Assembly: GCF_025420585.1 (NCBI RefSeq)
Contig: NZ_JAOEGB010000022.1
Coordinates: 1-64,000 of the forward strand
Direction of reading: 5' to 3'
DNA: 64,000 nt
Source of the DNA: Planotetraspora sp. A-T 1434
GTDB taxonomy: Bacteria; Actinomycetota; Actinomycetes; Streptosporangiales; Streptosporangiaceae
Both the position numbers and the translations under genes were made by a program. The notes beneath the pieces are model-generated. The model was given only the letters and a program-made list of their open reading frames with translations. It was not told the origin of the DNA and did not search any database. The stretch's first letter is position 1; each line of letters starts with the position of its first letter. Positions 7,718 to 60,133 of this stretch are shown here, piece after piece.

Positions 7718-9184
7718 CGCTCCACCGCTTCCGTGGGCTCGTCCACCCGCACGAGGGCCAGGTGCGGCGTGGTCCGCACGAAGAAGCCGTTCAGCGCCGT
7801 CTCCTCCGACAGGGCGTACTCGTTGGGGGCGACCAGCGGCCGCACCTCCGCCAGCACCTGCTCCTGCTCCTCCTCGGGCAGTCCGGCGAGCCAGGCGTCG
7901 TCCCTGCCGGAGCCCTGGGCGAAGTAGACGTCGATGAGGCGGCGCATCTCCGACACGACCAGCGCGCTGCCGCCACCTTCCGCGTCGTCGAGGTCCTCCA
8001 GCCCTGACACGACGTTCCAGAAGGCATGGATGATCCGGCCGTCGGCGACCTCCTCGCGCGACATCCGGTGCGCGTCCCAGAACAGCGACTTCTTGCCCCG
8101 GTAGTTCAGGTAGAGCGACGACACGAGGACCAGGAAGCGGATGTAGGCGGTCTGGTAGGCGCCGCGGTAGTACTCGGCGACCTCGTCCTCGCGGAGCTCG
8201 CCTCTTAGGATGCTGGAGACCCCGGCCGCGGCGAGGGTGGCGCTGAACGTGGCCAGGTGGACACCAGTGGACAGCAGCGGGTCGAGGAAGCTGGCCGCGT
8301 CGCCGGCGATGAAGTAACCCGGACCGGCCGACTCCTCGCAGATGTAGGAGAAGTCCTGCTCGACCTGGACCGGCCGGACCCGCGTCCCCGATTCCAGCAG
8401 GCCGGAGATGAGCGGCGACTCGGCCAGCGCGTCGCCGTACAACTCTTCGATCGTGCGGCCCTGGTCGCGACGGCTCTGGAAGCTCTGCTTGTGAGCGACG
8501 ACGCCGACGCTGAGGGTGCCGTCGTGCAGTGGGATGGCCCAGATCCAGCCGTCCTGGATGGAGCCGACCTGGATGGCCCCGGGCGGGCCGTGCCGCGGCG
8601 GCGTGGTGCCGGTCCAGTAGCTGTAGGCGGCGACGTTGCGGAAGCCCTCGTTGTAGCGGCGGCCGCCCAGGTAGCGGGTGGCCAGCAGGCCGGCGCGGCC
8701 CGAGGCGTCGATGAGGTAGTCGAAGGAGATTTCGCCGGTCTCCTCGGCATCGCGGGTGTTCACCCATTTCACCGAGGTGGGACGGCCGTCGGTGAAGACG
8801 ACCTCGGTCGCCTTGACGCCCTGGCGTACGCGCACGCCCTGGCTCTCCGCGTGTTCGAGCAGCAGGTGGTCGAACTCCGAGCGGATGACCTGGAAGCCGT
8901 ACCCGTCCTTGAACTCGGCGGGGTCGCCGAAGACGATCTCGAAGGTGTCGTCACCCCATTCGAGGTAGCCGCCGTATTTCCTGACGAAGCCGTGCCGCTC
9001 GGCCTTCTCCCTGGCGCCGATGAGATCGAGCACGGTGAGGATCGAGGGCAGCAGCGACTCGCCGATGTGCTCACGGGGGAACCGGTCACGTTCGAGCAGG
9101 GTGACCTGGAAGCCCTCGCGGGCGAGCAGTGACGCGGCGGTCGATCCCGCCGGGCCCCCGCCGATGACGAGGACGTTCGTGGTT

Positions 9185-9192
<8 letters not shown>
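7714..9192 (-). CDS. flavin-dependent halogenase
   Basis: A 492-residue FAD enzyme. The N-terminal GGGPAGSTAA dinucleotide-binding motif, the GESLLPS segment and the WIWAIP motif (WxWxIP) place it among FADH2-dependent halogenases rather than plain monooxygenases. It probably chlorinates an electron-rich or enolisable carbon, possibly on a carrier-bound intermediate; the substrate is unknown. The ATG at 9190-9192 has AGGAGG upstream and overlaps the end of the PKS gene by eight bases. A partner flavin reductase is not encoded nearby in the operon. The reductase gene at the far right edge of the window is unlinked. Confidence 0.88.
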
Positions 9193-13357
<4,165 letters not shown>

Positions 13358-44200: not shown

Positions 44201-44239
44201 GACGACTTTGCGGATGACCCTGGTGCCGGCGACGTCCAT
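41225..44239 (-). CDS. adenylate/guanylate cyclase-AAA ATPase-TPR regulator
   Basis: A 1004-residue protein. Residues 10-190 form a class III nucleotidyl cyclase catalytic domain with metal Asp residues in FCDLTEST and FIGDAVVGVFG and the transition-state NVAAR motif. An ATPase follows (Walker A GEAGIGKTRL, Walker B VLILDDMQW), then a long helical TPR region. No DNA-binding domain is visible. Such proteins are thought to sense signals and regulate nearby genes. It overlaps the peptide gene upstream and the subtilase downstream by ATGA, so it is co-expressed with the RiPP genes. The domain calls are firm; active cyclase function is likely but unproven. Confidence 0.9.
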   Translation of the reverse strand: MDVAGTRVIRKVVSVIFCDLTESTALSGELDPESLRSILLRYFDLMRDRVEYHGGVVEKFIGDAVVGVFGVPTLHEDDALRAVRAALEMRAALESFNDEVEAEIGIRLRARIGVNTGEVVASAENAGSQALVSGQVVNVAARLQTAAAPGEIVIGHDTRVAAGQAVVAAPTGPLSLRGVDHPVVAWRVESVRADDPAVSRRFDLPFVNRHSDFDSLDAHLDAVTARRHCRVVTVLGEAGIGKTRLVRTWAGRSPVARRARLASGRCRPYGEGGSLLSLAEALRPLARKTEAEPEIAAVLAAGLLADGTPGTGLEETVWAVGGLLRAVSGDRPVVLILDDMQWAAPALTDALTLLESQVRDLPLLVLCVARPEPRGHRAPGVLHRVERLTDDDSRVLACELADLSRPSQTPEVSAHAAGAVMTDQVVSRAEGNPLFLEQLMTMLGHGEEPERLPLSLRALIAARVESLPEDERAVLECGAVAGREFTLAQIGVLGISGEPGAPGDAVGSLVRGRFLEPVDGAEAGRLRFVSGLIQEVCYQAVSKRRLSDLHERLAGWSSGHGEDDEVVGRHLEQAYRHRAGLGRPDERSARLRDRAAAHLSAAGASALRRGDLNWASGLLERAVGLYDADDPLRLPTAERLAETWVMLGQVDRGERLLREVADDASAAVATTWAAAGVAAHARLFLGHLDPEPSARTAHDCLPVFEAAGDHLGLARAWIRIGQAAQARGRLVEAAETLDRALGHAVRADAELERATALGALSVSLWLGPVAVEAAVEQCLGLLREHGEGRRTVAAVMQCPLAVMHAMRGDTAQARAAFLAAEAIMTGIGHAFAGAFLPLFSASLDLLAGRPEAAETALRRSCTAAESLGDGQLLTTAWRDLARARLDQGDPDGARGWIGLALSSASGSTPINRAELLGMKARTVAGDQPSRARLLAARAVREAARTDSPACQATVLLDQAYVLTALSERTAAGDAARQAGTRFAAKGHRVGADRAAALLSVLAAT

Positions 44240-44427
44240 CAGAAGAGCAACCCGCCGATCATGTGGGCCTCCACGTCGGGCGCCGCGTCCAGCATCTGGA
44301 GCTGGATGGAGATCAGCAGATTCGTCTCCTCCTCGCTGAGGCGTGAGATGACGGCGAGCTGCTCCTCATCGGCCGGGCCGAGGTCGATGCCCGCCTCCGT
44401 CAGCGCGTGGAGCGGATCGAATGCCAC
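44239..44427 (-). CDS. aroma-sacti-type small peptide (possible RiPP precursor)
   Basis: A 62-residue acidic peptide from a GTG at 44427 with GGAGG upstream. FDPLHALTEAGIDLGPADEE, LSEEETNLL, a helix and PDVEAHMIGGLLF at the end fit the aroma-sacti cluster domain as I remember it: a small actinobacterial peptide family found beside modifying enzymes. It overlaps the haem-oxygenase-like gene by 28 bases and the cyclase gene by ATGA. It contains no cysteine, so any modification must use other residues. Whether it is a substrate or an accessory protein is open. Confidence 0.65.
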   Translation of the reverse strand: MAFDPLHALTEAGIDLGPADEEQLAVISRLSEEETNLLISIQLQMLDAAPDVEAHMIGGLLF

Positions 44428-45230
44428 GGTTCCTCCAAGGTGTTCTGTGCGATCGGAGTGGCGAGGCCGGCGGGGCCGCCGAGGTCGGCCGGGCCCGGAA
44501 AACCGGCCAGCCCGGCCAGCCCGGCCAGCCCGGCCAGGTCGGCGAACAGGCGCGTCGCCGCCTGAGTCGTGTGCAGGGCGCTGAGACCGATCGCCTGCTC
44601 CTGCCGGCCGGTCAGCGGCAGCCGGTCGAGGAGGGCGTCCAGCTCGGCACGGTGCTCCAGGTCGAGCTCGGCGTGGTGCCGCAGGGTGCGGAAGGCCGCC
44701 TCCGGGTAGCCCGTCCGCACGCGCAGGTGGCCGAGCAGCGCACCGGTCGGCGGAAAGCCCTCCAGGACGGCGATGTAACCGAGCAGAGCCACGGGATCGT
44801 CATGGATCACCCAGTAGTACTGGGCTCCGACGAGAGCGGCCGCCGACGAGGACGGCCGGCCCGGGGCATGGCCGAGGGCCTCCAGGTCGTCGCGAAGCCA
44901 GACGTCGTGGCCGCGTTCCTCCTCGATGTGGCCACGCAGGTATCCGGCCAGCTCCCGCTGCCCCTGCCGTACGGCCTCGGACAGGGCGGTCTCCATGAGC
45001 GGGACCGACGCGGTGATCACCTCGTGCATGGCCGCGAGGTAGGCGGGGTAGCGCAGCCGGAGGTCGGGGGCCGCCCACAGGCGGGCCGCGGCGGCCCGCA
45101 GGCCCGGCATGAGCAACTCGATCTTGACGCGGAGCGCCCCGCTGCGCGTGCCGGGAATCGTGCGATCACGGGTCCCGCCAGGACCGCCGGCGCGGGCCCC
45201 GCTGCGAGGGCCGGGAATCGTGTCCGTCAT
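44400..45230 (-). CDS. haem-oxygenase-like diiron redox enzyme
   Basis: A 276-residue helical protein resembling the iron-containing redox (HDO) superfamily. Likely ligands are the Glu and His residues in GHIEEERGHDVW, VLEGFPPTG and HHAELDLEHRAELD. Known HDO members oxidise or cleave amino acids, fatty acids or peptides. It lies directly upstream of the aroma-sacti-like peptide and may modify it. The C-terminus carries a GLAGLAGLAG run encoded by a 9-base repeat (about 44502-44541). The ATG at 45230 overlaps the oligopeptidase stop. Confidence 0.72.
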   Translation of the reverse strand: MTDTIPGPRSGARAGGPGGTRDRTIPGTRSGALRVKIELLMPGLRAAAARLWAAPDLRLRYPAYLAAMHEVITASVPLMETALSEAVRQGQRELAGYLRGHIEEERGHDVWLRDDLEALGHAPGRPSSSAAALVGAQYYWVIHDDPVALLGYIAVLEGFPPTGALLGHLRVRTGYPEAAFRTLRHHAELDLEHRAELDALLDRLPLTGRQEQAIGLSALHTTQAATRLFADLAGLAGLAGLAGFPGPADLGGPAGLATPIAQNTLEEPWHSIRSTR

Positions 45231-47296
45231 GACGCGCCGCCTTCGCGCGATCCGGTCAGGCCCGTGTGGTGCGCGAGGAAGGTGAGGACCTTCGCGGCGA
45301 GCCGGACTGCTTCGTCCCCCATCGCACCGGCGTGTCCGGCGCCCTCCACCATGTGGTGCAGGATGGGCCCTCCATCGGCCGCGTGCTGCAACTGCGCGGC
45401 CATCTTGCGCGAGTGGAGCGGATCGACCCGCGTGTCGTTGTCTCCGCTGAGGAGGAGAACCGCCGCGTTGCCGAAGGGCGCTCTGACGTTGTGGTACGGC
45501 GAGTACTTGAGCAGCGCCTCCAGGTCCGCCGGGTCCTCCGGCGAGCCGTACTCCTGACGCCAGGCCCTGCCCAGGCCCCAGCGCTCGTAGCGGATCATGT
45601 CCAGGGGAGCCGCCGCGCTGACGACGGCGGCGTAGGCGTGGGGCCGCTGGACGACGGTCCCCATGGCGAGGAGCCCGCCGTTGCTGCCACCGAGCAGGGC
45701 GAGTTGTTCCGGCGTCGTCCAGCCCTGCCGGACGAGCCAGTCGGCTGCCGCGTGCAGGTCGGCGAACGCGTTGGGCTTGTTGGTCCTGGCTCCGTCCCGG
45801 TGCCACTGCCTGCCACGCTCGTCGCCGCCGCGGATGCCCGCGACCGCGCTCACGCCGCCGCGGAGCACCCAGGCCACGAAGTCCGGTTCGTACTTCGGGC
45901 GGAAGGAGATGCCGAAGCCGCCGTAGGCGGTGAGGATTGCCGGCCGGGGCCGGCCGGGGTCACCGTCTCCGTCCGCGGCCGGGGCCAGGATGGTGAGGGG
46001 CACCTCGGTTCCGTCGAACGAGCGATAGGTGCGGTGCAGGATCCTGATGTCCGCTCGGGGGGTTCCCTCGGAGTCGACGGGCGTCACCCGGCCCGACTCG
46101 ACGTCCAGACGCCAGACGGACGGAGGGATGACCCAGTCCGTGTAGCTCAGCGTCAGCGCTCCCGGGTCGGGGCCGGGCATGATCCCCATGACGGCGCCCG
46201 TGCCGGGAAGGACGACATCGGTGACGACCGCTCCGGTCTCCGCGTCGTGGACGGTCATCTGGCTGAGGCCGTCCCGTGTGCGCAGGGCGACCAGGCGTTT
46301 GCCGCGTCCGGTCCGGGCCAGGGCCACCGTGGAGAGGGCGGCGGCGGTGTCCTCGGGGATGAGGACCCGCCATGGCCCCCACCCGCGGGAGACGGGTTCG
46401 GCCACGAGCACCTGCCCGAACCCGGCCGTCGTCGAGACCGTGGCGAGCAACCGGCCGTCCTCGTCGACCAGGACACTGGCCGAGGACGCCCCGTCCAGCG
46501 ACAGCGGACGGGGCCGCCCCCCTGTCTCGATGTCCGCGACGAGCACCTGCGTCTCCCGGGAGGTCCCCTCACGGATGGTGAAGACCAGCCATCGGTCGTG
46601 GCAGAGCCCGACGTGATAGCGCGTGGTCGCCCCCTCGTCACCGATCAGGATCTCGTCCTCGGTGACCGGGGTGCCCACCATGTGCCAGTAGACGCCGCGT
46701 CCCGGACGGTCGAGATGATCGCGTACATAGAAGAAACCACGGCCGTCGGCCCGCCACTCGATCGGCGAGTAGCGGGTGTGCGCGATGGCGTCCACGATCC
46801 GCCCGGTGGTCACCTCCACGATCGACAACGGGGTGTGCCGCTCGTCGCCCGCCAGGACGATCTGAATGGAGAGGTGCTCCCCCGTCGGCGACGGCTGCCA
46901 GCGCCGGATGAAGGCATCGGGCGGGAAGGTGACGTCGATGGGCGTCCACGGACCGCCGTCGCGGCTCTGGAACTCCGGTTCCCAGGCGGCGAGGCTGTCG
47001 CGCCGGCCGAGCCGGAACCTCCGAGATCCAGCGATCTTGACGGGTGAACGGACGGGCCCGCTCATCAGGCCGCGTATCGCCTCTCCCCAATGGCCGAGGC
47101 CGGGGAGCCGCTCCAGATATCCCGTGCTGAGAAGCTGCTGATCGCCTATCCAGTCCCGGACGGCCTCGGTGTGGCCTCCCTCCAGCCACCGGTACGGGTC
47201 CGCGACCGGGTGCCCGTGATAGTCCTCGACGATCGGCTCGCGGGGGGCCTGCGGATACGCGGGAACGGCGACCCGCCGGTGTTCGGGAGAAGTCAT
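45227..47296 (-). CDS. S9 prolyl oligopeptidase (FlaP-like)
   Basis: A 689-residue serine peptidase with an N-terminal beta-propeller (about 70-420) and a C-terminal alpha/beta-hydrolase. The catalytic Ser is in GGSNGGLLA, the Asp in DNDTRVDP and the His in EGAGHAG. It cuts short peptides after proline. Class III lanthipeptide clusters can use such an enzyme (FlaP) to remove leaders, and four of the five precursors here have Ala-Pro just before the core. It has no signal peptide, so it acts in the cytoplasm. The ATG at 47296 overlaps the transporter stop. Confidence 0.93.
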   Translation of the reverse strand: MTSPEHRRVAVPAYPQAPREPIVEDYHGHPVADPYRWLEGGHTEAVRDWIGDQQLLSTGYLERLPGLGHWGEAIRGLMSGPVRSPVKIAGSRRFRLGRRDSLAAWEPEFQSRDGGPWTPIDVTFPPDAFIRRWQPSPTGEHLSIQIVLAGDERHTPLSIVEVTTGRIVDAIAHTRYSPIEWRADGRGFFYVRDHLDRPGRGVYWHMVGTPVTEDEILIGDEGATTRYHVGLCHDRWLVFTIREGTSRETQVLVADIETGGRPRPLSLDGASSASVLVDEDGRLLATVSTTAGFGQVLVAEPVSRGWGPWRVLIPEDTAAALSTVALARTGRGKRLVALRTRDGLSQMTVHDAETGAVVTDVVLPGTGAVMGIMPGPDPGALTLSYTDWVIPPSVWRLDVESGRVTPVDSEGTPRADIRILHRTYRSFDGTEVPLTILAPAADGDGDPGRPRPAILTAYGGFGISFRPKYEPDFVAWVLRGGVSAVAGIRGGDERGRQWHRDGARTNKPNAFADLHAAADWLVRQGWTTPEQLALLGGSNGGLLAMGTVVQRPHAYAAVVSAAAPLDMIRYERWGLGRAWRQEYGSPEDPADLEALLKYSPYHNVRAPFGNAAVLLLSGDNDTRVDPLHSRKMAAQLQHAADGGPILHHMVEGAGHAGAMGDEAVRLAAKVLTFLAHHTGLTGSREGGAS

Positions 47297-48567
47297 GGCC
47301 GGGCTCCGGATGCTACGAGGGAGGTGTCCGTGGCGGGAGGAGTCAGGTGCAGCCGTCCACGGCGCACCCAGATCAGGAAGATCACCGCCGCGAGGACGAT
47401 AAGGGCCTGGCACAGCCAGAGGCCGCCACGGACGCCGAAACGCTCACCGGCGACGCCGCCCAGCAGCGCGCCGAGCGTGCTCGCGAACGTCGTGACCGAC
47501 CCCAGGAGGGTGCCCACCCGGCCGAAGAACTCGTCGCCCACGTCGTCCGACAGAATGCCGACGAGCGCCAGGTTGGCGGCGGCGCCGAAGAACACCGGCA
47601 GCCCCATCCCGAACACGACGGCTGTCACGGCCAGCCACAGCGGGCCCTGCGCCGCCGGAAGGGTGAAGCCGCACACGGCTATGGCCGGCAGGCAGATCAC
47701 CAGCAGCCGGCGAGCGGTCAGGCGCTCCGAGAGCAGGCGAGACCCCACGAAGGTGCCCGCGGCGGCCAGCAGCGTCGCCGCCACCGCGGGCACGCTGTAG
47801 AGGGCGACCGGCAGCCGCAACGTGTCCAGCAGGAACACGGCACGCTGGGCGGTGGTGCCACTTGTGGCGACGCTCACCAGGACGGCGTAGACCGTGTAGG
47901 CGACGAGGAGGCCGTGCGTGCGAACGGCGGTCACCCCGTCGCGCAACTCCCGCAGCAGGCCGGCCCGGGCTTGTGTGGGCGCCTCCCGCCGGTCCGGTGA
48001 CCGCAGGGCGCCCAGAGCCAGGGCGCTCACCAGATAGGTCAGCGCGTCCAGGAAGAACAGCAACGCGGCGCCCAGCCCCGCCACAAGGGGCCCGGCGGTG
48101 CTCGCCGCGACGGACCGGGAGAGCAGCTCGGACGACTGCAACTTCCCCCTGGCCTTGCTGAGGTCGCCGACGTCGAGACTGCGGAGGTGGGAGAAGTACA
48201 GGGCGCCGGTGACGACCTGCGCGAGGCCCAGCGCGAAGGACGTTCCCGACAGGATCAGGACGCTCAGCAGGCCGCTGAAGGCCATGACGGCGCACACGAG
48301 CGTCGCCACACCGCAGGCCAGATCGACGAGTATGAGCGTGCGCCGTGGGCGGGTCACCCGATCTGCCAGGACCCCGAGAATCGGCCCGAACAACAGTGCC
48401 GGCGAGGTCCCGGCGGCGACGATCAGGGAAACCTGACGCGGTCCGGCGTCGAGGATGGCCACCGCCACCACCGAGGTGGCGGTGGCGGTCAGTGTGCTGC
48501 CGAAGGCCGAGGTGGCCTGCCCCCACAAATAGAGGCGCATGTCGGTAGGTCGGGCGATGAGGGGCAC
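47293..48567 (-). CDS. MFS exporter of the lanthipeptide set
   Basis: A 424-residue, twelve-helix MFS_3-type transporter (GVLADRVTRPRRTLILVDL loop). The start is the GTG at 48565-48567 with GGAG upstream; a longer frame exists but covers the small peptide gene upstream in another frame. It probably exports the mature lanthipeptides or protects the host. No ABC transporter is encoded in the island. Confidence 0.88.
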   Translation of the reverse strand: MPLIARPTDMRLYLWGQATSAFGSTLTATATSVVAVAILDAGPRQVSLIVAAGTSPALLFGPILGVLADRVTRPRRTLILVDLACGVATLVCAVMAFSGLLSVLILSGTSFALGLAQVVTGALYFSHLRSLDVGDLSKARGKLQSSELLSRSVAASTAGPLVAGLGAALLFFLDALTYLVSALALGALRSPDRREAPTQARAGLLRELRDGVTAVRTHGLLVAYTVYAVLVSVATSGTTAQRAVFLLDTLRLPVALYSVPAVAATLLAAAGTFVGSRLLSERLTARRLLVICLPAIAVCGFTLPAAQGPLWLAVTAVVFGMGLPVFFGAAANLALVGILSDDVGDEFFGRVGTLLGSVTTFASTLGALLGGVAGERFGVRGGLWLCQALIVLAAVIFLIWVRRGRLHLTPPATDTSLVASGARP

Positions 48568-48599
48568 GGGAGACTCCGCCGTTGTCGTTCGCTTTGAGA

Positions 48600-48767
48600 T
48601 CAGCCCGGAAAGGGATCCGAGCAGAAGGCCATCGACAGCACGCTGTTGGGCGCGTCGAAGCCCATCTCCATTTCCACTTCCATGTCCATGTGCGCATGGA
48701 CGTCCGCGTCGTCGAGCCCGTAAGGAATGTCGTGCGGCAGATTGTTGAGTGACATCACTTGGTCCAT
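48600..48767 (-). CDS. 55-residue Met/His-rich peptide, unknown
   Basis: A short gene from an ATG with AGAAGGA upstream. The peptide starts MDQVMSLNNLPHDIPYG, has an alternating acidic/Met run MDMEVEMEM after DVHAHM, and ends with one cysteine (AFCSDPFPG). It lies between the last lanthipeptide precursor and the exporter in the same direction. It lacks the ILxLQ leader motif, so it is not a copy of the five precursors. It may be a precursor for another enzyme of the island or a metal-binding peptide. Confidence 0.6.
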   Translation of the reverse strand: MDQVMSLNNLPHDIPYGLDDADVHAHMDMEVEMEMGFDAPNSVLSMAFCSDPFPG

Positions 48768-48881: not shown

Positions 48882-48986
48882 CTACTGCTGATTGGTGCAC
48901 AGGAAGTAGCTCGTGGCGCTGAAGGCCCCGTCCTCCTCAGCGCCTTCCGGATTGCGCAGGTCCTGGAGCTTCAGAATCTCAATCAT
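48882..48986 (-). CDS. class III lanthipeptide precursor A
   Basis: A 34-residue precursor starting from an ATG with AAAGGAAA upstream. The leader has ILKLQ, the class III recognition motif (ILELQ-like), and an acidic patch. The core SATSYFLC is a labionin-type Ser-x2-Ser-x3-Cys motif, followed by TNQQ. Unlike the other four it has no Pro before the core (EEDGAF). It is the most divergent of the three x3-ring copies. Confidence 0.87.
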   Translation of the reverse strand: MIEILKLQDLRNPEGAEEDGAFSATSYFLCTNQQ

Positions 48987-49016
48987 CGCGTTTCCTTTCT
49001 CGGGCTGTTCAGGTCG

Positions 49017-49050
49017 GTGCCGGGTGTGAGTCGCTGCCCCCACCCGGCAC
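49017..49050 (-). other. hairpin between precursors A and B
   Basis: GTGCCGGGTG and CACCCGGCAC form a perfect 10-base stem with a 14-base loop. It is a possible attenuator or mRNA processing site setting the ratio between precursors. Confidence 0.55.
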
Positions 49051-49105
49051 TCGCCATCGGTTGCCGAATCAGCTCATCGAGCCGAATCCGGACTTCGAGC
49101 CGTTG

Positions 49106-49210
49106 CTACTGCTGTGCCGTGCACAGGAAGTAGCTCTTGGTGCTGTCGGGCGCCTCCTCCTCCGTGCCTTCCGGAGTGCGCAGGGCCTGGAGCTTCAGAA
49201 TCTCCGTCAT
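49106..49210 (-). CDS. class III lanthipeptide precursor B
   Basis: A 34-residue precursor. The leader is MTEILKLQALRTPEGTEEEA, then Pro, then the core DSTKSYFLCTAQQ with Ser-x2-Ser-x3-Cys. The ATG at 49210 has AAAGG upstream. A longer open frame runs through it from upstream but lacks a ribosome-binding site. It is nearly identical to precursor C. Confidence 0.9.
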   Translation of the reverse strand: MTEILKLQALRTPEGTEEEAPDSTKSYFLCTAQQ

Positions 49211-49308
49211 CGTGTTGCCTTTCTTTGACTTGTTCAGGAGGGCGCGGGGGAACGCACCCCGGCCTGAATTTCTCCGGCTGATCGAGCCCGTTTGGACTCG
49301 AGCCGTTA

Positions 49309-49413
49309 CTACTGCTGCTCGGTGCACAGGAAGTAGCTCCTGGTGCTGGTGGGCGCCTCCTCCTCCGTACCTTCCGGAGTGCGCAGGGCCTGAAGCTTCA
49401 GAATCTCGGTCAT
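49309..49413 (-). CDS. class III lanthipeptide precursor C
   Basis: A 34-residue precursor differing from B in only a few core residues: EEEAP then TSTRSYFLCTEQQ, again Ser-x2-Ser-x3-Cys. The start ATG follows AGGGGAGGG, the strongest ribosome-binding site of the set. B and C are probably a recent duplication. Confidence 0.9.
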   Translation of the reverse strand: MTEILKLQALRTPEGTEEEAPTSTRSYFLCTEQQ

Positions 49414-49535
49414 TTTCCCTCCCCTCTGATATCGCTTGTCTATTGGAACGGCGCCGGGTATCGGACCACGGACACCGGCCACTGGCGTGGAAAGTCTTCT
49501 ATGGATTAGAACAGGTCAGAGCTGCGCATCCGCGT

Positions 49536-49655
49536 TCAGCTCGGCGGTCTCGGAGGCGGGCAGAGAACGCCGACGCTGAATGTGCTCACCGTCCACGGCG
49601 CCTTGTCCGTCTCCTCCGGACCGCGCAGAACCTGGAGTTTCAGAATCTCAGTCAC
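49536..49655 (-). CDS. class III lanthipeptide precursor D
   Basis: A 39-residue precursor with a GTG start at 49655 (GAAGGG upstream). The leader has TEILKLQVLRGPEETDKAP; the core has STFSVGVLC, a Ser-x2-Ser-x4-Cys motif with one more spacer residue than A-C. A proline-rich tail CPPPRPPS follows and is unusual for the class. The tail might limit or guide a proline-specific peptidase. Confidence 0.85.
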   Translation of the reverse strand: MTEILKLQVLRGPEETDKAPWTVSTFSVGVLCPPPRPPS

Positions 49656-49685
49656 CTTTGTTTTCCCTTCTTCTATGGCCTCGGC

Positions 49686-49796
49686 TCACTCGGGGACTAT
49701 GCAGCCGTGGTAGAAGTTGCTGACGGAGCTGACGGGCGCGTCCTCCTCGATCTCTCCGGAGTTACGCAGAAGCTGCAACTTGAGAATTTCGGTCAC
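49686..49796 (-). CDS. class III lanthipeptide precursor E
   Basis: A 36-residue precursor with a GTG start at 49796 and AAGGAGAG upstream. It overlaps the end of the synthetase gene by 35 bases. The leader is TEILKLQLLRNSGEIEEDAP; the core has SSVSNFYHGC, a Ser-x2-Ser-x5-Cys motif, the largest spacing of the five. The tail is IVPE. Confidence 0.86.
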   Translation of the reverse strand: MTEILKLQLLRNSGEIEEDAPVSSVSNFYHGCIVPE

Positions 49797-52374
49797 GGTT
49801 CTCTCCTTGCTGGACGGCGTCGAGCGTGAACAGCGGGTCCGGAAGCCCTGTGAGCATTCGCGTGAGTGCGAGAAGCACGCCGGCCGAGCCGCTCCACAGA
49901 TCCGCGGAGAATCGCATGAGGAGCGGGCCGCCCCCGAGGAACCGCACCCCGTCCTGGCCAGCCACCGCGTGCTTGAAGAGCGCGATCCCGGCTGCGCGCT
50001 CCTGGGCCGCCAGGTCCGGGCGATCCAGCAGTACGGAGGCCTGCCCCAGGGCCAGGGCCATCCCGGCCTGCCCGCCGAGCAGCCCGGCGGCCGCGGCGAA
50101 TCGCACGGAGCAGTAGCGCAGGCTGCGCCGCAGCGCGTCGGCCAGTCCGGCGTCGTCGATCATCGTGAGGTAGCGGGCCACGACGTGCGCGTATCCGGCG
50201 CTGCCCCACTGCAGGTAGGGCATGTTGCGCCGGTCCACGGTGGACACCCGGAACCCGAGCGCGTCGACGTCCAGCGGCTGGCCGTGTGACAACTCCTCGC
50301 GCAGGAGGCGGGCACCGCGGTCCAGCATCGCCCGGTCACCGGTGAGCCGGCTCAGGTAGTACAGGGCCAGCGCGATGCCGGGGCGCCCGTCCACCAGACC
50401 GGAGGCGTCGTCGGGGCCGAGCAGGGGGACGAGCGCGGCCCCGTCGGGGATTGCGGTCAGCGCCTGCTCGGCGGCCGCGATGTGCCGGTCGTCGCCGGTG
50501 TGGCCGTGGAGGGACAGGTGGGCCATGGCCAGCCCGGCGGCGCCTCCGCCGAGTGTGGCGCAGGCGCGGCTGAGCGGATGCCGGTCGGCCGCGGCGAGCA
50601 ACTCGCCGGCCGCGTCGATCTCCCCCAGGTCGGCCAGGACCCAGGCGATGCCGGCGTTGCCGTAGAACAGGCCGGGCGGGGTTTCGTCGCGCTCCCGGAT
50701 CGACTCGTCGCGTAGCCGGGTGACGATCCGCGGGTCGATCCGGCGGCCCGCCGCCCGCAGGGCGTGGAGCACTCCGGCGGTCCCGTGGGCCACGCACCGG
50801 GTGTTGGACACCGCCCCCTGGGGTGTCGTCGGGTAGACCCAGCGCGGGTTGTCCGGCTGCGCCATGGCCTCGATCGCGTCCGCCGTGCGCTCCCGCAGCC
50901 ATCGCAGGTGCGTGAGCGGCTCCTGCCGTACCTCATCGGGCGTGGGCAGCAGCGGGCGCTCGGGACTCGCGTGGAATCGGGTCACGACGCGCCAGAGCCG
51001 ATCCGGGATCGGAGCGAGGTCGGTCAGGTCGCGGTGCAGGTGACCGGCCACCTCCGGCGTGCGCTCCAGGACGTTGTGCAGCGGGAACAGCAGCATCTGC
51101 GCCACGGCCGAGATGCCGTACTCGTCGATCCGCCGAGCGTCCTTGGCGGCGGGACTCTCCGGATCGCGGATCTCCGCGGGCAGGAACCCGGGGGCTCCTA
51201 TCGTCCTGAACTCCGCGTCCAGGCGGCAGGCCCCCTCGAAGTCGACCAGCCTGATCCGTTCGTTGTCGTCGATGAGAATGTTCTTCGGGTTGAGGTCGAC
51301 GAACGCGTATCCCACGTCGTGCAGGGTCGCGATCAGCCCCTTGAGCTGGTCGAGGATCGACAGGCAACTCCGGTAGTAGCCCGCGAACACCTCCGGCCGC
51401 TGCTCCACCCGGATGCTCGGCTCGTTCGCCACCACCCACTTCATCAGGGTGGTTCCGGGGACGAGTTCCGAGACCAGGAAGGTGTTCTCCCACTGCTGGA
51501 ACAGCTCGATCGGCTCGGGGCATATCCCGGGATGCGCGGCGTGCAGCGCCCGCAGCGTCCGGTGCTCCTGCGCCAGCAGGGTCTGCGCGTCGGTCCCGTC
51601 CCACCAGTAGCCGTTGTGCGCCCGCGCCTCCTTGACGAAGACCTGCCTGCCGTCCTCGGTCCGGGCGACGTAGGCGCCGCCGGCGTTGCTGTGCTGCAGC
51701 ACCGACTCGAAGGTGTAGCCGCCCAGCGTGATCGGCTGGTCGCCGGCGTCCGCCGGTTCGGTCCCGAACGGGTCCGCGATCCCGGGCGGCAGCATGAACA
51801 TCGGCTGGCGCTCGTCGGGGATCTCCTGCCCGTCGAGGTCGAGCATGACCGGCTGCCGGGTGCCGTCCGGCTGAAGCCTGTGCCGCGGGCGGAACGCGCC
51901 GTACCGGTACGCCACGGACGAGGAGGCGCCGAAGCGCCGATCGGTGAGGATGTACGGCCCGGCGAAACCCGCGAGCCGCTCCTCCAGCCGCACCAGGATT
52001 TCGTGGGCGATCCGCGGGGTCGCCGGATACAGGGCGCAGAACTTCCCGCTCTGCACGCGGGAGCCGTGCTTGTGATGCATCCACAGGAACAGGCGCCTGC
52101 TGCTCACATGCTTGAAGGGGACGGAGAACTCGGCGCAGACCTCTGTGACGATGTCGAGCACGGCCTGCGCGTTCTCCAGCGAGCTGGAGACATGTACCTT
52201 CCACCCCTGGTCGGCAAGGTCGCCCTCAGGGGGTGTCCACATCGTCCAGACGCTGCTCGTGTGCCGGCTCCAGTGCTCGGGCACGACCGTCGGCGCGTAG
52301 GTGACACCGGGCTCGACCAGCTCGGCCGGCTCGTAGTAGTCAGGGTGGGCGAGGGTGAAGCCGAAGTACTGCAT
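49762..52374 (-). CDS. class III lanthipeptide synthetase (LanKC)
   Basis: A synthetase of about 870 residues. It has an N-terminal phospho-Ser/Thr lyase domain (WKVHVSSSLENAQAVLD, KHVSSRRLF, GKFCALYP). A kinase domain follows, with the lysine in VFVKEARAHN, the catalytic loop FVDLNPKNILI and the DFE variant of DFG. The C-terminal cyclase domain (GNAGIAW, QWGSAGYA, DLWSGSAGVLLAL) lacks the zinc Cys-Cys-His, which defines class III. The start is placed at the ATG at 52374, with GGGA upstream, because known homologues begin near this residue; an ATG at 52416 is possible. It leads the minus-strand set with five precursor genes immediately after it. Confidence 0.95.
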   Translation of the reverse strand: MQYFGFTLAHPDYYEPAELVEPGVTYAPTVVPEHWSRHTSSVWTMWTPPEGDLADQGWKVHVSSSLENAQAVLDIVTEVCAEFSVPFKHVSSRRLFLWMHHKHGSRVQSGKFCALYPATPRIAHEILVRLEERLAGFAGPYILTDRRFGASSSVAYRYGAFRPRHRLQPDGTRQPVMLDLDGQEIPDERQPMFMLPPGIADPFGTEPADAGDQPITLGGYTFESVLQHSNAGGAYVARTEDGRQVFVKEARAHNGYWWDGTDAQTLLAQEHRTLRALHAAHPGICPEPIELFQQWENTFLVSELVPGTTLMKWVVANEPSIRVEQRPEVFAGYYRSCLSILDQLKGLIATLHDVGYAFVDLNPKNILIDDNERIRLVDFEGACRLDAEFRTIGAPGFLPAEIRDPESPAAKDARRIDEYGISAVAQMLLFPLHNVLERTPEVAGHLHRDLTDLAPIPDRLWRVVTRFHASPERPLLPTPDEVRQEPLTHLRWLRERTADAIEAMAQPDNPRWVYPTTPQGAVSNTRCVAHGTAGVLHALRAAGRRIDPRIVTRLRDESIRERDETPPGLFYGNAGIAWVLADLGEIDAAGELLAAADRHPLSRACATLGGGAAGLAMAHLSLHGHTGDDRHIAAAEQALTAIPDGAALVPLLGPDDASGLVDGRPGIALALYYLSRLTGDRAMLDRGARLLREELSHGQPLDVDALGFRVSTVDRRNMPYLQWGSAGYAHVVARYLTMIDDAGLADALRRSLRYCSVRFAAAAGLLGGQAGMALALGQASVLLDRPDLAAQERAAGIALFKHAVAGQDGVRFLGGGPLLMRFSADLWSGSAGVLLALTRMLTGLPDPLFTLDAVQQGENRDRNSQVAASA

Positions 52375-52621
52375 CAGGTGTCCCGTCAAAGCGTCCGGTG
52401 GCTCCGTCGCCGGCATCGGCCGGCAACGACGAAGCTAGGCAGCCCCGGTTGGCAGACAGTTCGGTCCCGGTATGGAAACGGCGAATTCGCAGGTGGAGAA
52501 GGAGTTGCGCGCACCTTCCCGCAATGCGGTGAAGGCGCGGCGCCGTCCCGGCGTGGAACGAGATGTCACGGAATGGCACGCCCTTGTTCGGGGGCCATTT
52601 CAGCTCGAGAACGGGACCTGG
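52375..52621. promoter_or_regulatory. divergent region between the two lanthipeptide synthetases
   Basis: The region between the class III and class IV synthetase genes, with lower G/C than the genes. It should hold both promoters. I see no clear paired boxes. The right half could instead code for the N-terminus of the class IV enzyme if an ATG at 52472 is used. Confidence 0.35.
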
Positions 52622-55597
52622 ATGAACGATGGGGGCGGGCCGCGTGACACGCGCGCCCACGAGAACGCACGTGAGGTGGACGACTCGCGGTTACTGCAGG
52701 ACATCCTGCGGGCCGTAATGGCGCGCGAAGACGCGGGCCACACCTGGAAAGTCGAAACCCGGGAGCCCTGGTGTGTCGTGACGCCACCGGAAGGCCGCAT
52801 GCGCGACCAGGGCTGGAAGTTGCACGTCTCGGCGACGCAACTGTCGGCGCCGGTCGTGCTGAGCCGTGTCGCCGAGGTGCTCGTCCGCGGCGGCTGCGCG
52901 TTCAAGTTCGCACGCGGGCTGCGGGAGCTCGGCCGGCTGCTCGACGGCGACTGCGACCGCGGCAGCGGCGGGAAGTTCGTCACGGCATACCCGGCTGACG
53001 ACGAGCGGTTCCGTGAGCTCGCGACGGAGCTGGACCGGGTGACCGACGGGCTGCCCGGGCCGGTGATCCTCTCCGATCGGCGACTGCGCCCGGGGAGCCT
53101 GGTCCACTACCGCTTCGGGGTCTTCGGCGCCTCTCCGGTGCTCTCCAACGACGGCGGCTTCGAGTCCATGCTCACCGCGCCGGACGGCAGGCGTCAGAAG
53201 GACGAACGGCTCGCCTGGTTCAGCCCGCCGTCCTGGGCGCCGGCACCACCACTGCAGAAAGCGCTGCAGGAAGCACCGGCCGAAGCGCTGCCGGAAGCAC
53301 CGGCACCGCTGGTGGCTTCCGGGACCGCCGAGCCGGGAGCCGTCCTTCTCGGTGGCCGGTTCCTCGTCCGCGAAGCCATCCGGCAGTCCTATCGGGGCGG
53401 TGTCTACCGGGCCGCCGACCAGCACACCGGGGCCGAGGTCGTCGTCAAGCAGGCTCGGCCACACGTCCTGGGCTCGCTGACCGGGCGGGACGCCCGGGAC
53501 GCGTTGCGTCACGAGGCGAAGATCATGGACCTGCTCGGCCCGCTGGGATTGACTCCACGCAAGGTGGCGTTGTTCACCCACCAGGAGAACGTGTTCCTGG
53601 CCGAGGAATCCGTGCCGGGCGTCACGCTTCGCCAGTGGGCCTCGGAACGCGCCGTCACCGAATGGCGGGGCCAGGGGGCACCACCGGCCGAGGCCGTCGA
53701 CAAGGCCGTCCAGCTGGCGGACATCATGACGGCGGTCCACGACCAGGGCCTCGTGCTGCGCGACTTCACCCCGAACAATCTCATGGTCACGCCGGACGGC
53801 CGGCTGCGGCTGATCGACCTGGAGCATGTGGTCCCGGCCGGTTCCAGGGTGGCCCGCGCCTACACCACGGCCTACGCGGGCCGGGAGCAGACGTCCGCGC
53901 CCTGGTTCGGGCCGGCGCCGTCACCGCGGTCGGATCTGTTCAGCCTGGGCGCCACCGTTTTCTATCTGGTGACCGGCATCGATCCGCTGCTGCCCGCCGA
54001 CGAGCCCCGTCCGGGGACCGCCGGGCGGCCGGACGAGGAGCGGCTGGAGGCTCTCGTCACCGCCATCGCATCCCGCATGCCGGCGCTGCGGTCGCTCTCC
54101 CCCTTGGTACGGGGACTGATGCGGGACGACCCGGAGGAAAGGTGGAGTCTGAAGCAGACGCGGGACTTCCTGGCCGCCGCGGGCCGCCCCGGGAGGCGGC
54201 GAACCGAAGGGCCGCCGATCACGATGAAGCGCACGCTGCGCGACGCGACGACGGACACGCTGCGGGAAGCAGTCGGGGACGTCATGAAGGAGCGCCTCCT
54301 CGCCGACGGGCTCAGGCACGTCCTGCGCACGATGACCCCCGAGGGGCCGCGGCTGTGGAAGGCCGGGGCGTTCGGCGACACCACCGATCCCTGCAACGTC
54401 CAACACGGCGCGGGCGGGGTGCTGGCCGTACTGACCAGATCCGCGCAGGTCCTCGGCGGCGACCCGCACGGCATCCCGCACCGTGACCGGCACGGGGACC
54501 TGCGCGGTGACCTGCACGGGGACCTGCGCGGTGATGACCTGGGGGCTGAACTGCGCGAGGGCGTGGCGGCGGTGGCGGGCTGGATCGGAGGGCGGCTCTT
54601 CGACATTCCGCGCGTCCTCCCCGGGCTCTACTTCGGCAGATCGGGTACGGCATGGGCGCTCCATGACGCGGCACGGTTCCTGGGGGACGACCACATGGCC
54701 GCGCGAGCCGTCGAGCTGGCCAAGCGTGTTCCCGTGGAATGGCCCAACCCGGACATCTGCCACGGCGCGGCGGGCGCGGGCATGGCCCAGCTTCACCTGT
54801 GGACGTCGACCGGCGATCCGGAGCCGGCGCGCCGCGCCGTCCTCGCCGCCGACTGCGTGCTGAATGCGGCGCGCGAGCGCGACGGCCACCTGATGTGGCC
54901 CATACCCGCGACATTCGACTCGAGCCTGGCGGGGCTGACCCACTACGGGTTCGCGCACGGCGTGGCCGGAGCCGGGACCTTCCTGCTGTACGCCGGGCTC
55001 GCGACCGGCCGGCCCGAGTATCTGCGGGCCGCCCACCGCGCGGGGGAAACGCTGGAGGCGGTGGCCGACGTCGAGGACGGCGCGGCCTGGTGGCCGAGCG
55101 GCGAAGCCGGCGAACCCTCCCGCAGCCGGTTGAGGCACTGGTGCAGCGGCTCCTCAGGGGTCGGCACGTTCCTCATCCGCCTGTGGCGGGCCACCGGGGA
55201 GCGCCGCTTCCGGGACCTCGCCGAAGCGGCCGCCGTGGCGATCCGCCGGGACCGGTGGTACTCGTCCGTCAGCGCCTGCCACGGGCTGGCCGGGGACGGG
55301 GAGTTCCTGCTGGACCTCGCCGGTTTCACCGGCGACCGGCGCTACCGCGACTGGGCGGAGGAGCTCGCCACGGTGATGTACGCCCGTCATGCCGTCCGGG
55401 ACGGGCTCCTGGTGCTGCCCGACGAATCCGGCATGCACGTCCACGTGGGCTACAACACCGGGCTCAGCGGCGCGCTGGGGTTCCTCCTCCGGCTGCGCCA
55501 CGGAGGGCCTCGCTGGTGGATGCCCGACGAACTGCTGGCCCAGGAGGGACGTGCCCACACCGACCGCCGTCGGCCGGCGGCGGTGATGGCCTCATGA
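52622..55597 (+). CDS. class IV lanthipeptide synthetase (LanL)
   Basis: An enzyme of about 991 residues. The lyase domain contains CVVTPPEGRMRDQGWKLHVS, FKFARGL and GKFVTAYP. The kinase has VVVKQARPH, the loop LRDFTPNNLMV and DLE in place of DFG. The LanC-like cyclase keeps the zinc ligands Cys841 (HWCSG) and Cys886-His887 (SACHG), which separates class IV from III. An earlier ATG at 52472 would add 50 residues, but it has no ribosome-binding site, weaker codon bias and no counterpart in relatives such as VenL. A 24-base repeat inserts an HGDLRGDL run before the cyclase. Two cysteine-rich precursors follow. Confidence 0.93.
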   Translation: MNDGGGPRDTRAHENAREVDDSRLLQDILRAVMAREDAGHTWKVETREPWCVVTPPEGRMRDQGWKLHVSATQLSAPVVLSRVAEVLVRGGCAFKFARGLRELGRLLDGDCDRGSGGKFVTAYPADDERFRELATELDRVTDGLPGPVILSDRRLRPGSLVHYRFGVFGASPVLSNDGGFESMLTAPDGRRQKDERLAWFSPPSWAPAPPLQKALQEAPAEALPEAPAPLVASGTAEPGAVLLGGRFLVREAIRQSYRGGVYRAADQHTGAEVVVKQARPHVLGSLTGRDARDALRHEAKIMDLLGPLGLTPRKVALFTHQENVFLAEESVPGVTLRQWASERAVTEWRGQGAPPAEAVDKAVQLADIMTAVHDQGLVLRDFTPNNLMVTPDGRLRLIDLEHVVPAGSRVARAYTTAYAGREQTSAPWFGPAPSPRSDLFSLGATVFYLVTGIDPLLPADEPRPGTAGRPDEERLEALVTAIASRMPALRSLSPLVRGLMRDDPEERWSLKQTRDFLAAAGRPGRRRTEGPPITMKRTLRDATTDTLREAVGDVMKERLLADGLRHVLRTMTPEGPRLWKAGAFGDTTDPCNVQHGAGGVLAVLTRSAQVLGGDPHGIPHRDRHGDLRGDLHGDLRGDDLGAELREGVAAVAGWIGGRLFDIPRVLPGLYFGRSGTAWALHDAARFLGDDHMAARAVELAKRVPVEWPNPDICHGAAGAGMAQLHLWTSTGDPEPARRAVLAADCVLNAARERDGHLMWPIPATFDSSLAGLTHYGFAHGVAGAGTFLLYAGLATGRPEYLRAAHRAGETLEAVADVEDGAAWWPSGEAGEPSRSRLRHWCSGSSGVGTFLIRLWRATGERRFRDLAEAAAVAIRRDRWYSSVSACHGLAGDGEFLLDLAGFTGDRRYRDWAEELATVMYARHAVRDGLLVLPDESGMHVHVGYNTGLSGALGFLLRLRHGGPRWWMPDELLAQEGRAHTDRRRPAAVMAS
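54491..54538. repeat. 24-bp tandem repeat in the class IV synthetase gene
   Basis: Two copies of a unit beginning CACGGGGACCTGCGCGGTGA, with a related partial copy before them, encode alternating HGDLRGDL residues in the linker between the kinase and cyclase domains. It looks like slippage in a tolerant loop. Confidence 0.8.
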
Positions 55598-55666: not shown

Positions 55667-55801
55667 GTGGAGATTGACATCAGCGCATTGGAGCTCCTTC
55701 CCGCGAGGGCGGCAGGCCGCGTGCCGTGCAATCCCACGGGGAGCAGTTGCAGCTGGTCCTGCACATACAGCTGTGGCGATTCCTGTCAGGTGACCGAATG
55801 A
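55667..55801 (+). CDS. class IV lanthipeptide precursor 1
   Basis: A 44-residue precursor from a GTG with GAGGAGG nine bases upstream. The short leader is EIDISALELLPARAAGR. The core has five cysteines with the last four in strict CxxxC spacing, each preceded by Ser (SCSWSCTYSCGDSC). The serines and threonines next to cysteines suit lanthionine formation by the class IV synthetase encoded just upstream. The stop overlaps the next gene by ATGA. Radical SAM modification is an alternative, given the neighbours. Confidence 0.85.
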   Translation: MEIDISALELLPARAAGRVPCNPTGSSCSWSCTYSCGDSCQVTE

Positions 55802-55986
55802 CCGTCGCCGGCGCTGTGGCTCAGCCATTTCATCGAATCAACACCCGAATCGCGGAAATCGACATCGCCCTGCTGGATCTGTTGCCCGCACAGCTCATTG
55901 AGCCGAAGCAGTGCGGCACGGAGAGCACATGTTCCGGGACCTGTACGAACACCTGTAAGAATTCGTGCAGGATAACGAACAGGTGA
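55798..55986 (+). CDS. class IV lanthipeptide precursor 2
   Basis: A 62-residue paralogue of precursor 1. After an extra N-terminal stretch of about 18 residues the leader repeats the motif (EIDIALLDLLPA against EIDISALELLPA). The core TCSGTCTNTCKNSC again shows [S/T]-C every four residues, with one further upstream Cys. The ATG overlaps the first precursor's stop; an internal GTG at 55816 is also possible. The DNA here is visibly lower in G/C than the synthetase, common for precursor genes. Confidence 0.83.
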   Translation: MTVAGAVAQPFHRINTRIAEIDIALLDLLPAQLIEPKQCGTESTCSGTCTNTCKNSCRITNR

Positions 55987-55990
55987 AAAG

Positions 55991-56024
55991 GCGGCGGCCC
56001 GGTCAGCTCTGGCCGGGCCGCCGC
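55991..56024. terminator. bidirectional terminator between converging RiPP genes
   Basis: GCGGCGGCCCGG and CCGGGCCGCCGC form a perfect 12-base stem with a 10-base loop. The loop contains the stop of the convergent radical SAM gene. It would end transcription of the class IV operon, and probably that of the opposing genes. Confidence 0.7.
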
Positions 56025-57112
56025 GCCCCGCCGAGCACGCCGAGCATGGTGAGCAGCGGGTCGTGGGCCGGGTCGGGGATGCGCTCGGCCACCAGCCAGC
56101 ACAGCTCGCAGATGCTGGTGAACCGCCGGTCCGCGAGGTCGGCGAGGCGCGGGTCGGCGGTGATCGGCCCGGGTCCCACCGTGGCCACGACGGAGAACAT
56201 GGCGTGATGCCGCAACTCCTTGAGGGCTTCCGCCGTCTCGGGCGCGTCACCGCACGTGCGGCGGAACTCGGCGGGTCCTCGGCCCATGACGACGGCCTCG
56301 TTGCAGCAGGCGGCCACGACGCCGTCGTAGCGGACGACCGGGCTGCGCGCGACGCGGCACGGGCCGAAGTCCTTGCCCGCGACGAGGGGCCTGGGCGCGA
56401 CCAGACCGGCCGCGCGGCCGTACGGCAGCAGCCCGACCCTGTTGAGCTCCGCGGCCTCCGGCCAGCACGGCCCGAGCGCCTGCTCGAGTAGACCCACGGC
56501 GCGGTCGACGGCGTCCTGGTCGTCGACCACTTGGACGACGAGGGGCGTTCCCTCGTCCGCTATGGCGCGAGCGGCGTTCGCGAAACGCTCGTCGGCCAGC
56601 CGGGCCTGGTGGAAGGCGTCGGTGCTGAGGAACACGCACGAGCAGGCGCGCAGCACTCGACGGACCCAGCCGGAGGTTCGATTGCCCCAGAACCCGCTGG
56701 TGTACACGACGAGATGCTTACCGGCGGCGGTTATCCGGTCGGCCGCGAGCGTGAGCGCACGCCGCTCGGCGAACGGCTCCCCGCCCGATACGCCGATGAG
56801 GCGCGGTTCGCCGGCGCATAGAGCGTCCAGGACGCCCTCGAACAGCGTGAAGTCGGTCACGCGCGGACTGTCCGGGCGCGAGTCGACCGAGCAGTGACCA
56901 CAGCCGACCGGGCAGCGGTCGGTGATGAACAGCAAGGCGCTGGCCCCGGGCGTGTCCCGGGCGGCCTCGACGTCCGCGAGCCTCAGGCGGGGCGAGGTCG
57001 CGGCCTCGCCGCACGGAAACGGCAGGCGGGGCGTCGGCGCGGCATCGCGGTACGACAGGCGGGGCGTCGGCGCGGCATCGCGGTACGACAGGCGGGGCGT
57101 CGGCGTGGTCAT
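56003..57112 (-). CDS. radical SAM protein 2 with C-terminal Cys motifs
   Basis: A 369-residue radical SAM enzyme. The cluster motif CPVGCGHC (CxxxCxxC), SGGEPF and the C-terminal cysteines (FGPCRVAR, AACCNEAV, CELC) suggest a SPASM/twitch-like auxiliary cluster, as in peptide-modifying members. The N-terminus carries an RLSYRDAAPTP repeat encoded by 33-base units and then a leader-like stretch. It overlaps radical SAM protein 1 by ATGA. Likely substrates are one of the small peptides of the island, but none is proven. Confidence 0.85.
   Translation of the reverse strand: MTTPTPRLSYRDAAPTPRLSYRDAAPTPRLPFPCGEAATSPRLRLADVEAARDTPGASALLFITDRCPVGCGHCSVDSRPDSPRVTDFTLFEGVLDALCAGEPRLIGVSGGEPFAERRALTLAADRITAAGKHLVVYTSGFWGNRTSGWVRRVLRACSCVFLSTDAFHQARLADERFANAARAIADEGTPLVVQVVDDQDAVDRAVGLLEQALGPCWPEAAELNRVGLLPYGRAAGLVAPRPLVAGKDFGPCRVARSPVVRYDGVVAACCNEAVVMGRGPAEFRRTCGDAPETAEALKELRHHAMFSVVATVGPGPITADPRLADLADRRFTSICELCWLVAERIPDPAHDPLLTMLGVLGGARRPGQS
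57025..57106. repeat. 33-bp tandem repeat at the start of radical SAM protein 2
   Basis: Two exact 33-base units and a partial third encode TPRLSYRDAAP repeats at the protein's N-terminus. Confidence 0.85.
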
Positions 57113-58179
57113 CGGCCCAGGCCCACGAGCTCGCCGTACCGGGCGGAGCCGTAGCGGCGGGCGAATCCGGCGGCCCCCTCGGCGACTTGGCGGCGGGTGG
57201 CATCCGCGTCCAGGAGCGAGAAGACGGGGCGGGTCGCGACCGCCTCGGCGCGCGGGTCGTCGGAGAGGAGCCGGCAGGTCTCGCAGTAGCCGCCGCCCTC
57301 GGGGACGCCGCCCATCGAGGCGACGTACTGCGGACCCACCGCTCTGATCGCTCTCAGCAGCGGCCTGCTGAGGCAGCGTTCCCTGATCTCCGGCCAGCCG
57401 TCCCGGGCCGCGTGCCCCAGGGTCAGATGCGGTACGGCCTCGCCCCGATCCGCCACGTCCTGGTTGCAGCAGGCGACCACCGTGCCGTCGAAGGTCACCA
57501 CGGGCCAGGCGGCCATCGTGCACGGCGCGGGTGGAAGGGCGATCGGCCGGTGCGTGAGGACTCTGCGCCGTTCCTCCGGCCAGTCCCCCAGCCAGCCGGC
57601 GGCCCTGCCGACCGGGCCGACGAGTCCGACGAGGACGGGAACCCGGTCGCCCAGCGTCTCGCGGATGTCTCCGACGGCTTCGGCCAGATACGGATCGTCG
57701 TCGCCCAGCCCGGTGAGCTGGACGCTGACGTCCTTGCCCTCCGCCCGCAGCGCGCCCAGCACCTCCAGGACCGCTCGACGGGGAACCTCCTCCTCGTGGA
57801 AGGCGTCGACGCTGGCGGCGAAGTGGTCGACCGCGTCGATGGCCTTCTTGATCGGGCCGGGGATCCGCCCGTCGCGGGCGAAGAACATACCCGAGAGCAC
57901 GTACGACGCGGTTCCCGACTCCCGAGCCCTTGTGGCGATCCGCTCGACGAGCGAAGGCCGGAGCAGCGCCTCTCCACCGGACATCAGGACGAGACGGGGA
58001 TGGGCGTCAGGGGTGAAGGACTCGACGAGGCGCGTGAAGAGGTCCGGTGAGTGCTCCTCGCTGCCGATGGCGGAGTTCGTCGAGCAGTGGCGGCACGACA
58101 GTGGGCACCGCCGGGTCAGGGACAGGAAGACCGCGGAGGCGGGGACGGGACGCAGGGCAAGGATGTCCAGAAGATGCAC
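57109..58179 (-). CDS. radical SAM protein 1 with C-terminal Cys motifs
   Basis: A 356-residue paralogue of radical SAM protein 2. CPLSCRHC binds the 4Fe-4S cluster, and MSGGEALLR is the SAM-binding motif. PPAPCTMA, VVACCNQDVA and YCETCRLL are candidate auxiliary-cluster ligands. The start GTG at 58179 has GGGGGA upstream, 12 bases after the SARP stop, so it is probably co-transcribed with the SARP gene. Two tandem paralogues may form a heterodimer or act on two residues. Confidence 0.86.
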   Translation of the reverse strand: MHLLDILALRPVPASAVFLSLTRRCPLSCRHCSTNSAIGSEEHSPDLFTRLVESFTPDAHPRLVLMSGGEALLRPSLVERIATRARESGTASYVLSGMFFARDGRIPGPIKKAIDAVDHFAASVDAFHEEEVPRRAVLEVLGALRAEGKDVSVQLTGLGDDDPYLAEAVGDIRETLGDRVPVLVGLVGPVGRAAGWLGDWPEERRRVLTHRPIALPPAPCTMAAWPVVTFDGTVVACCNQDVADRGEAVPHLTLGHAARDGWPEIRERCLSRPLLRAIRAVGPQYVASMGGVPEGGGYCETCRLLSDDPRAEAVATRPVFSLLDADATRRQVAEGAAGFARRYGSARYGELVGLGR

Positions 58180-60030: not shown

Positions 60031-60103
60031 GTTGGAAACCCCGTTCTTCCCCGTGAACTTTGTGGACAGCACTCTTACCGGATAGTTGGCAGAGGCAATC
60101 AAC

Positions 60104-60133
60104 AAATTAAATTGATTTGACGCTATTCGTCAA
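60104..60133 (-). promoter_or_regulatory. SARP promoter with overlapping inverted repeat
   Basis: On the minus strand a -35 box TTGACG (60133-60128) and a -10 box TAATTT (60109-60104) lie 18 bases apart in A/T-rich DNA. An inverted repeat TTGACG-N5-CGTCAA (60117-60133) covers the -35 box and could be an operator. Confidence 0.5.

Follow-up and report, generated by a model that had tools for sequence, protein, structure and literature searches.

Does a single class III lanthipeptide synthetase, followed by a run of small genes whose predicted rings differ in span, work through a graded series of ring sizes, or is the variation of a more ordinary kind? The locus that raises this question lies in the first 64,000 nucleotides of contig NZ_JAOEGB010000022.1 of Planotetraspora sp. 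A-T 1434; this whole stretch is referred to below as the window. A sequence-only reading had described five class III precursors at 48882-49796, sharing an ILKLQ leader and a Ser-x2-Ser-x(n)-Cys motif, as a natural experiment in ring size.

Identification of the precursor genes

Both strands of the whole 64-kb window were scanned, blind to gene positions, for open reading frames (ORFs) that combine the leader register M-x2-h-x2-h-x2-h with an SxxSx(2-5)C motif among the 25 C-terminal residues. Exactly six were found: the five precursors already proposed (A to E), all on the minus strand, and a sixth (F) that the sequence-only reading had missed (Table 1). Random sequence generated from an order-1 Markov model gave a mean of 0.13 such ORFs per window and a maximum of one, and a stricter leader pattern gave no matches in 40 randomised windows. 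With six found against 0.13 expected, chance ORFs were rejected as an explanation.

Table 1. Features of the lanthipeptide locus (positions in the window; n, number of residues between the second Ser and Cys).
Feature	Positions	Strand	Details
Precursor A	49686-49796	-	VTEILKLQLLRNSGEIEEDAPVSSVSNFYHGCIVPE; core SSVSNFYHGC, n=5
Precursor B	49536-49655	-	VTEILKLQVLRGPEETDKAPWTVSTFSVGVLCPPPRPPS; core STFSVGVLC, n=4
Precursor C	49309-49413	-	core STRSYFLC, n=3
Precursor D	49106-49210	-	core STKSYFLC, n=3; tandem copy of C/E
Precursor E	48882-48986	-	core SATSYFLC, n=3
Precursor F	48600-48767	-	MDQVMSLNNLPHDIPYGLDDADVHAHMDMEVEMEMGFDAPNSVLSMAFCSDPFPG; ring motif SVLSMAFC, n=3
LanKC, class III lanthipeptide synthetase (lyase-kinase-cyclase)	49762-52416	-	884 aa; NF038151; RamC_N and Pkinase domains
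MFS exporter	47293-48569	-	likely GTG start about 48569; MFS_1 E 1e-20, MFS_3 E 6e-11
S9A prolyl oligopeptidase (POP), likely leader protease	45227-47296	-	Pfam S9 and S9_N
Haem-oxygenase-like iron enzyme	44400-45230	-	PF14518 E 3e-11
Small peptide with aroma-sacti domain; possibly the precursor of a third RiPP	44239-44427	-	NF045560 67.5 bits, cut-off 30
LanL, class IV synthetase	52472-55597	+	NF038150 1084 bits, cut-off 650
LanL precursor 1, Cys-rich	55667-55801	+	VEIDISALELLPARAAGRVPCNPTGSSCSWSCTYSCGDSCQVTE
LanL precursor 2, Cys-rich	55798-55986	+	62 aa; ends CGTESTCSGTCTNTCKNSCRITNR
Radical SAM protein 1	56003-57112	-	PF04055 just below cut-off
Radical SAM protein 2	57109-58179	-	PF04055 40.8 bits
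SARP/BTAD-type regulator, likely of the cluster	58192-60105	-	BTAD E 9e-40; NB-ARC

The shared ILKLQ leader is indeed present in all of A to E, and supplies the LxLQ element (a hydrophobic residue at every third position) of class III leaders; the class III core motif SxxSx(2-5)C occurs in six of six precursors. Read in the direction of transcription, from A to F, the spacing is n = 5, 4, 3, 3, 3 and 3, and the values of 3, 3, 3, 4 and 5 previously given for the five are those of E to A. C, D and E have the ring motif S-x2-S-YFL-C. The precursors do not, as had been stated, end in Cys, but continue for 4-7 residues beyond it: with Cys C-terminal in none of them, and without a LanD-type match among the neighbouring genes scanned, identity as lipolanthines was rejected. 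Individually, A to E fall under the NCBI curated cut-offs for class III lanthipeptides (precursor C matches NF038159 with E 3e-4, below the curated cut-off). No further copies of their leader were found elsewhere in the genome, and a scan for promoters and terminators returned none.

The leader of precursor F is divergent (M-x2-V-x2-L-x2-L): M1, V4, L7 and L10 keep the register of MTEILKLQAL, with the literal LQ absent. A homolog (MDEVMSLNDLPYELDDGEVQAHMEMTGNLTGPLSMMSLVCPNAFPI; tblastn E 1e-7), with n=2 and GP-x-S, occupies the same place in Planobispora takensis, between the precursors and the MFS gene (L020:13190-13330). Because the two are only 46% identical and dN/dS is not clearly low, it is the combination of leader, motif, position and ribosome site that supports F.

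The synthetase and the proposed pathway

That one class III synthetase precedes the precursors is true of LanKC, which reaches 709.6 bits with the class III profile NF038151 (cut-off 575) and only 358 bits with that of class IV (cut-off 650), and whose best solved relatives are the class III LanKC structures 8sap and 8sam. The gene lies upstream of the precursors and its 3' end overlaps precursor A, the GTG start of which stands within lanKC behind AAGGAGAG. What had escaped notice is a class IV synthetase, LanL, on the divergent strand and starting 55 bp from LanKC. In an alignment with ThurKC the cyclase zinc-ligand sites of LanKC are not Cys and Cys-His: YLQWGSAG and GLLGGQAG stand in place of HWCSG and ACHG, motifs that the neighbouring LanL does carry. 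In this, LanKC agrees with class III enzymes, whose cyclases lack zinc ligands (PMC10604976). A second class III LanKC (961 bits) is encoded in another part of the genome (L031, G000:C55:12000-31500), where the scan found no precursor, and a 471-aa open frame (L032, G000:C46) has a RamC_N-type match without the remaining LanKC parts.

The prolyl oligopeptidase is a genuine prolyl endopeptidase relative (match to 2bkl, E 1e-79). Pro precedes the first motif Ser as P-x-S in A, C, D and F, and as P-x3-S in B; it is absent from E (DGAF), the one precursor in which AP does not stand ahead of the core. The locus combines, as do class III clusters with POP leader proteases of the FlaP/NorP type, an S9 prolyl oligopeptidase with Pro near the leader/core border. 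P-x-S is also found in both P. takensis precursors, and Pro is absent in G175, a relative that bears a POP. The MFS genes of syntenic loci are 57-72% identical.

Very probably these genes form a class III operon in which LanKC modifies six precursors, POP cuts and the MFS protein exports, the spans having arisen by duplication and drift; the earlier claim is supported as to the class III nature of the precursors, their single cognate LanKC and the predicted differences in ring span. From the genes, leaders, motif, synteny, enzyme class and protease class observed here we infer modification, ring type, cleavage site, export and any activity of the peptides. LanKC would bind the short amphipathic leader, with its hydrophobic residues at positions 1, 4, 7 and 10, and would phosphorylate and eliminate both Ser of Ser-x2-Ser; addition of the single Cys would then close, in each peptide, one labionin or lanthionine whose span on the Cys side is 3, 4 or 5 residues. 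In all precursors but E, the prolyl oligopeptidase would cut after the Pro preceding the first motif Ser, and the MFS protein would export the product. For cores cut after AP and lacking two waters, the calculated [M+H]+ values are 1601.74 for A, 1991.02 for B, 1527.69 for C, 1455.66 for D and 1535.67 for F. Cleavage by POP is proposed because FlaP, the prolyl oligopeptidase of the class III flavipeptin cluster, provides a precedent: it cuts after a leader Pro, and only in modified flavipeptin (PMC10885120). FlaP cuts at Pro(-12), however, and further trimming is needed (PMC10885120), whereas Pro here lies 1-3 residues before the ring. Against the proposed pathway stand the absence of Pro from E and from G175, and the scores of A to E under the curated cut-offs.

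The haem-oxygenase-like iron enzyme is conserved in the P. takensis and G208 loci. Adjoining it is the aroma-sacti peptide, which is 62 aa long, Cys-free and ends in EAHMIGGLLF; it is 76% identical in P. takensis and is also kept in G208. It may be the precursor of a third RiPP, on which the two radical SAM proteins would act. A literature search for the term 'aroma-sacti' gave no match.

Relatives of the cluster

Close relatives of LanKC occur in 11 of 343 genomes of the family, this one included. An order-level search returned the same genomes, a genome contig scan gave one relative, and a survey of the phylum gave mostly SapB/AmfS-type loci with motifs that are all n=3. LanKC is 74% identical in an uncharacterised cluster of P. 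takensis NBRC 109077 (L020), where LanKC, precursors, F, MFS, POP, iron enzyme, aroma-sacti peptide and a cyclase/AAA gene stand in the same order, the proteins of this block being 72-77% identical. On the other flank P. takensis also has the regulator, which there adjoins LanKC and is 64% identical, together with the two radical SAM genes (73% for protein 1 and 77% for protein 2), in a block inverted relative to the present cluster; its precursors number only three (two identical with n=5, and the F homolog with n=2) against six here. Among more distant orthologs, n=3 is found in G175 and G210 and n=4 in G208, and G007, G009 and G012 have the form T-x2-S-x4-C. These last three loci and that of G008 (L023, L024, L025 and L026 for G008, G007, G009 and G012), which encode close LanKC relatives, have a single precursor with a core like LTMSSKGSIC, that is Thr-x2-Ser-x4-Cys, and an extra upstream Cys (ELAC).

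In Planobispora the flanking radical SAM genes are part of the class III cluster, and LanL is absent at this place from the P. takensis class III cluster, so that the class IV system has apparently been inserted between LanKC and the two radical SAM genes.

Ring type, enzyme and the order of ring sizes

The label "labionin" was a guess, for the product of Sx2Sx3C is lanthionine or labionin depending on the class III peptide (PMC7268733), and the mode by which class III enzymes form labionin has been called unclear (PMC10604976). The sequence here would allow either, and a labionin has the mass of a lanthionine plus dehydroalanine. It is quite possible, if short of likely, that LanKC forms plain lanthionine instead of labionin, in all six peptides or in a subset, joining Ser to Cys and leaving a dehydroalanine free, as the mixed fate of Sx2Sx3C would allow: SapB and AmfS carry lanthionine (PMC13380574), and the position of ThurKC Phe770, which is Phe in most class III relatives, is Leu in LanKC (motif GLLGGQAG). 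In ThurKC this residue is needed for ring formation and F770A lost the protected ring (PMC10604976); given the Leu, efficient formation of labionin is not assured. The well-studied single-Cys class III products noursin (PMC10206099) and andalusicin (PMC10604976), on the other hand, carry labionin. A far slighter prospect is a part for LanL in modifying some ILKLQ precursors, to be considered at all because LanL starts so close to LanKC and because class III and class IV leaders are reported to have a common hydrophobic register. LanL has two precursors of its own, however, with an EIDI-type leader ending in LLP; among ten genomes of the family in which LanL relatives were sought, G210 (L056) again has both classes side by side, its LanL (61% identical) lying some 8 kb from LanKC and being paired with a precursor of the same leader type; and P. 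takensis retains the class III cluster without LanL.

D and E are 87% alike over 182 nt including the spacer, and C 66%, from which it follows that these three genes arose by tandem copying and that only three independent sizes are ordered; by our reckoning, three items fall in monotone order by chance one time in three, and since the neat order rests on three sizes we give it little weight. The view that 3-3-3-4-5 has meaning as a stepwise series, kept by selection as a ladder of ring sizes for one enzyme, has this monotone order along the operon in its favour, but is very unlikely: the values in the nearest relative are n=5, 5 and 2, and class III motifs normally range over n=2-5. Selection of the series as such was rejected on the evidence of the duplicates and the relatives. 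Of the "stepwise natural experiment" there remains the fact that the predicted spans differ; such variation is not unusual, lying within the published range, and the nearest relative itself pairs n=5 with n=2. The n=5 of A is shared with the P. takensis precursors, and C and D differ at core positions only, outside Ser, Ser, YFL and Cys, with a leader dN of 0. The differing spans would reflect gene duplication and drift of the core inside a range that class III enzymes already accept. B (weak Shine-Dalgarno, odd Pro-rich tail CPPPRPPS) and E (without Pro, and with similar dN and dS in comparisons with C and D) could be decaying duplicates, so that only some precursors would be working genes; yet all six retain open frames, the leader register, both Ser and Cys, and we consider this unlikely.

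Relation to known systems

Labionins with different Cys-side spans are made by one class III enzyme in the case of LabKC, with n=3 and n=5 both within labyrinthopeptin A1. The labyrinthopeptins differ from the present cluster in having two motifs per core, a disulfide and fewer precursors. More generally, SxxSx(2-5)C is the stated substrate motif of class III enzymes (PMC11251773, PMC8960859), and several precursors per LanKC are familiar: the clusters of ThurKC (andalusicin) and PttKC (paenithopeptin) have one LanKC, precursors A1 to A7 and an LxLQ-type leader (PMC10604976, PMC8960859), and a Bacillus cereus cluster has 13 identical precursors (PMC7268733). The ThurKC and PttKC clusters are from Firmicutes and have M16B proteases, in contrast to the POP here, and that of ThurKC includes a methyltransferase. 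The noursin cluster (nor, NorKC) resembles ours in its LanKC, single-Cys precursor with an L-x-LQ leader, S9 peptidase and transporter, but has one precursor, a histidinobutyrine cross-link and no tandem precursors (PMC10206099); its labionin, spanning residues 3/7/15, is larger than any predicted here (PMC10206099). Because the motif is a textbook substrate and many precursors per LanKC are known, we rank the cluster as a known kind: it adds a tidy case to an established family of peptide natural products, and is not a new phenomenon.

A fuller reading would credit one class III lineage with single-ring cores whose labionins cover all the allowed spans, 2 to 5, and one post-proline protease with the release of them all, in a compound locus that also acquired a class IV system and whose radical SAM and iron enzymes would work on a third peptide, so that two or three RiPP types would be made under one regulator; as a whole, this reading seems unlikely. 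While the cluster alone reveals no new principle, it is unusually convenient for work on ring size. The same leader and enzyme with spans of 3, 4 and 5 (and 2 in the sister cluster) provide a ready-made set of substrates for ring-size tolerance, suited also to testing the choice of class III cyclases between lanthionine and labionin, and the near-identical pair C and D, along with E, which has no Pro, offer natural controls where the specificity for cores and that of the protease are concerned.

At some distance in the window, a large protein encoded at 9185-13357 on the minus strand begins, as judged by eye, like a polyketide/beta-ketoacyl synthase (EIAIVGMAGRFPGARNLDEFW); the gene beside it (7714-9192), likewise judged by eye, resembles flavin-dependent oxygenases/halogenases.
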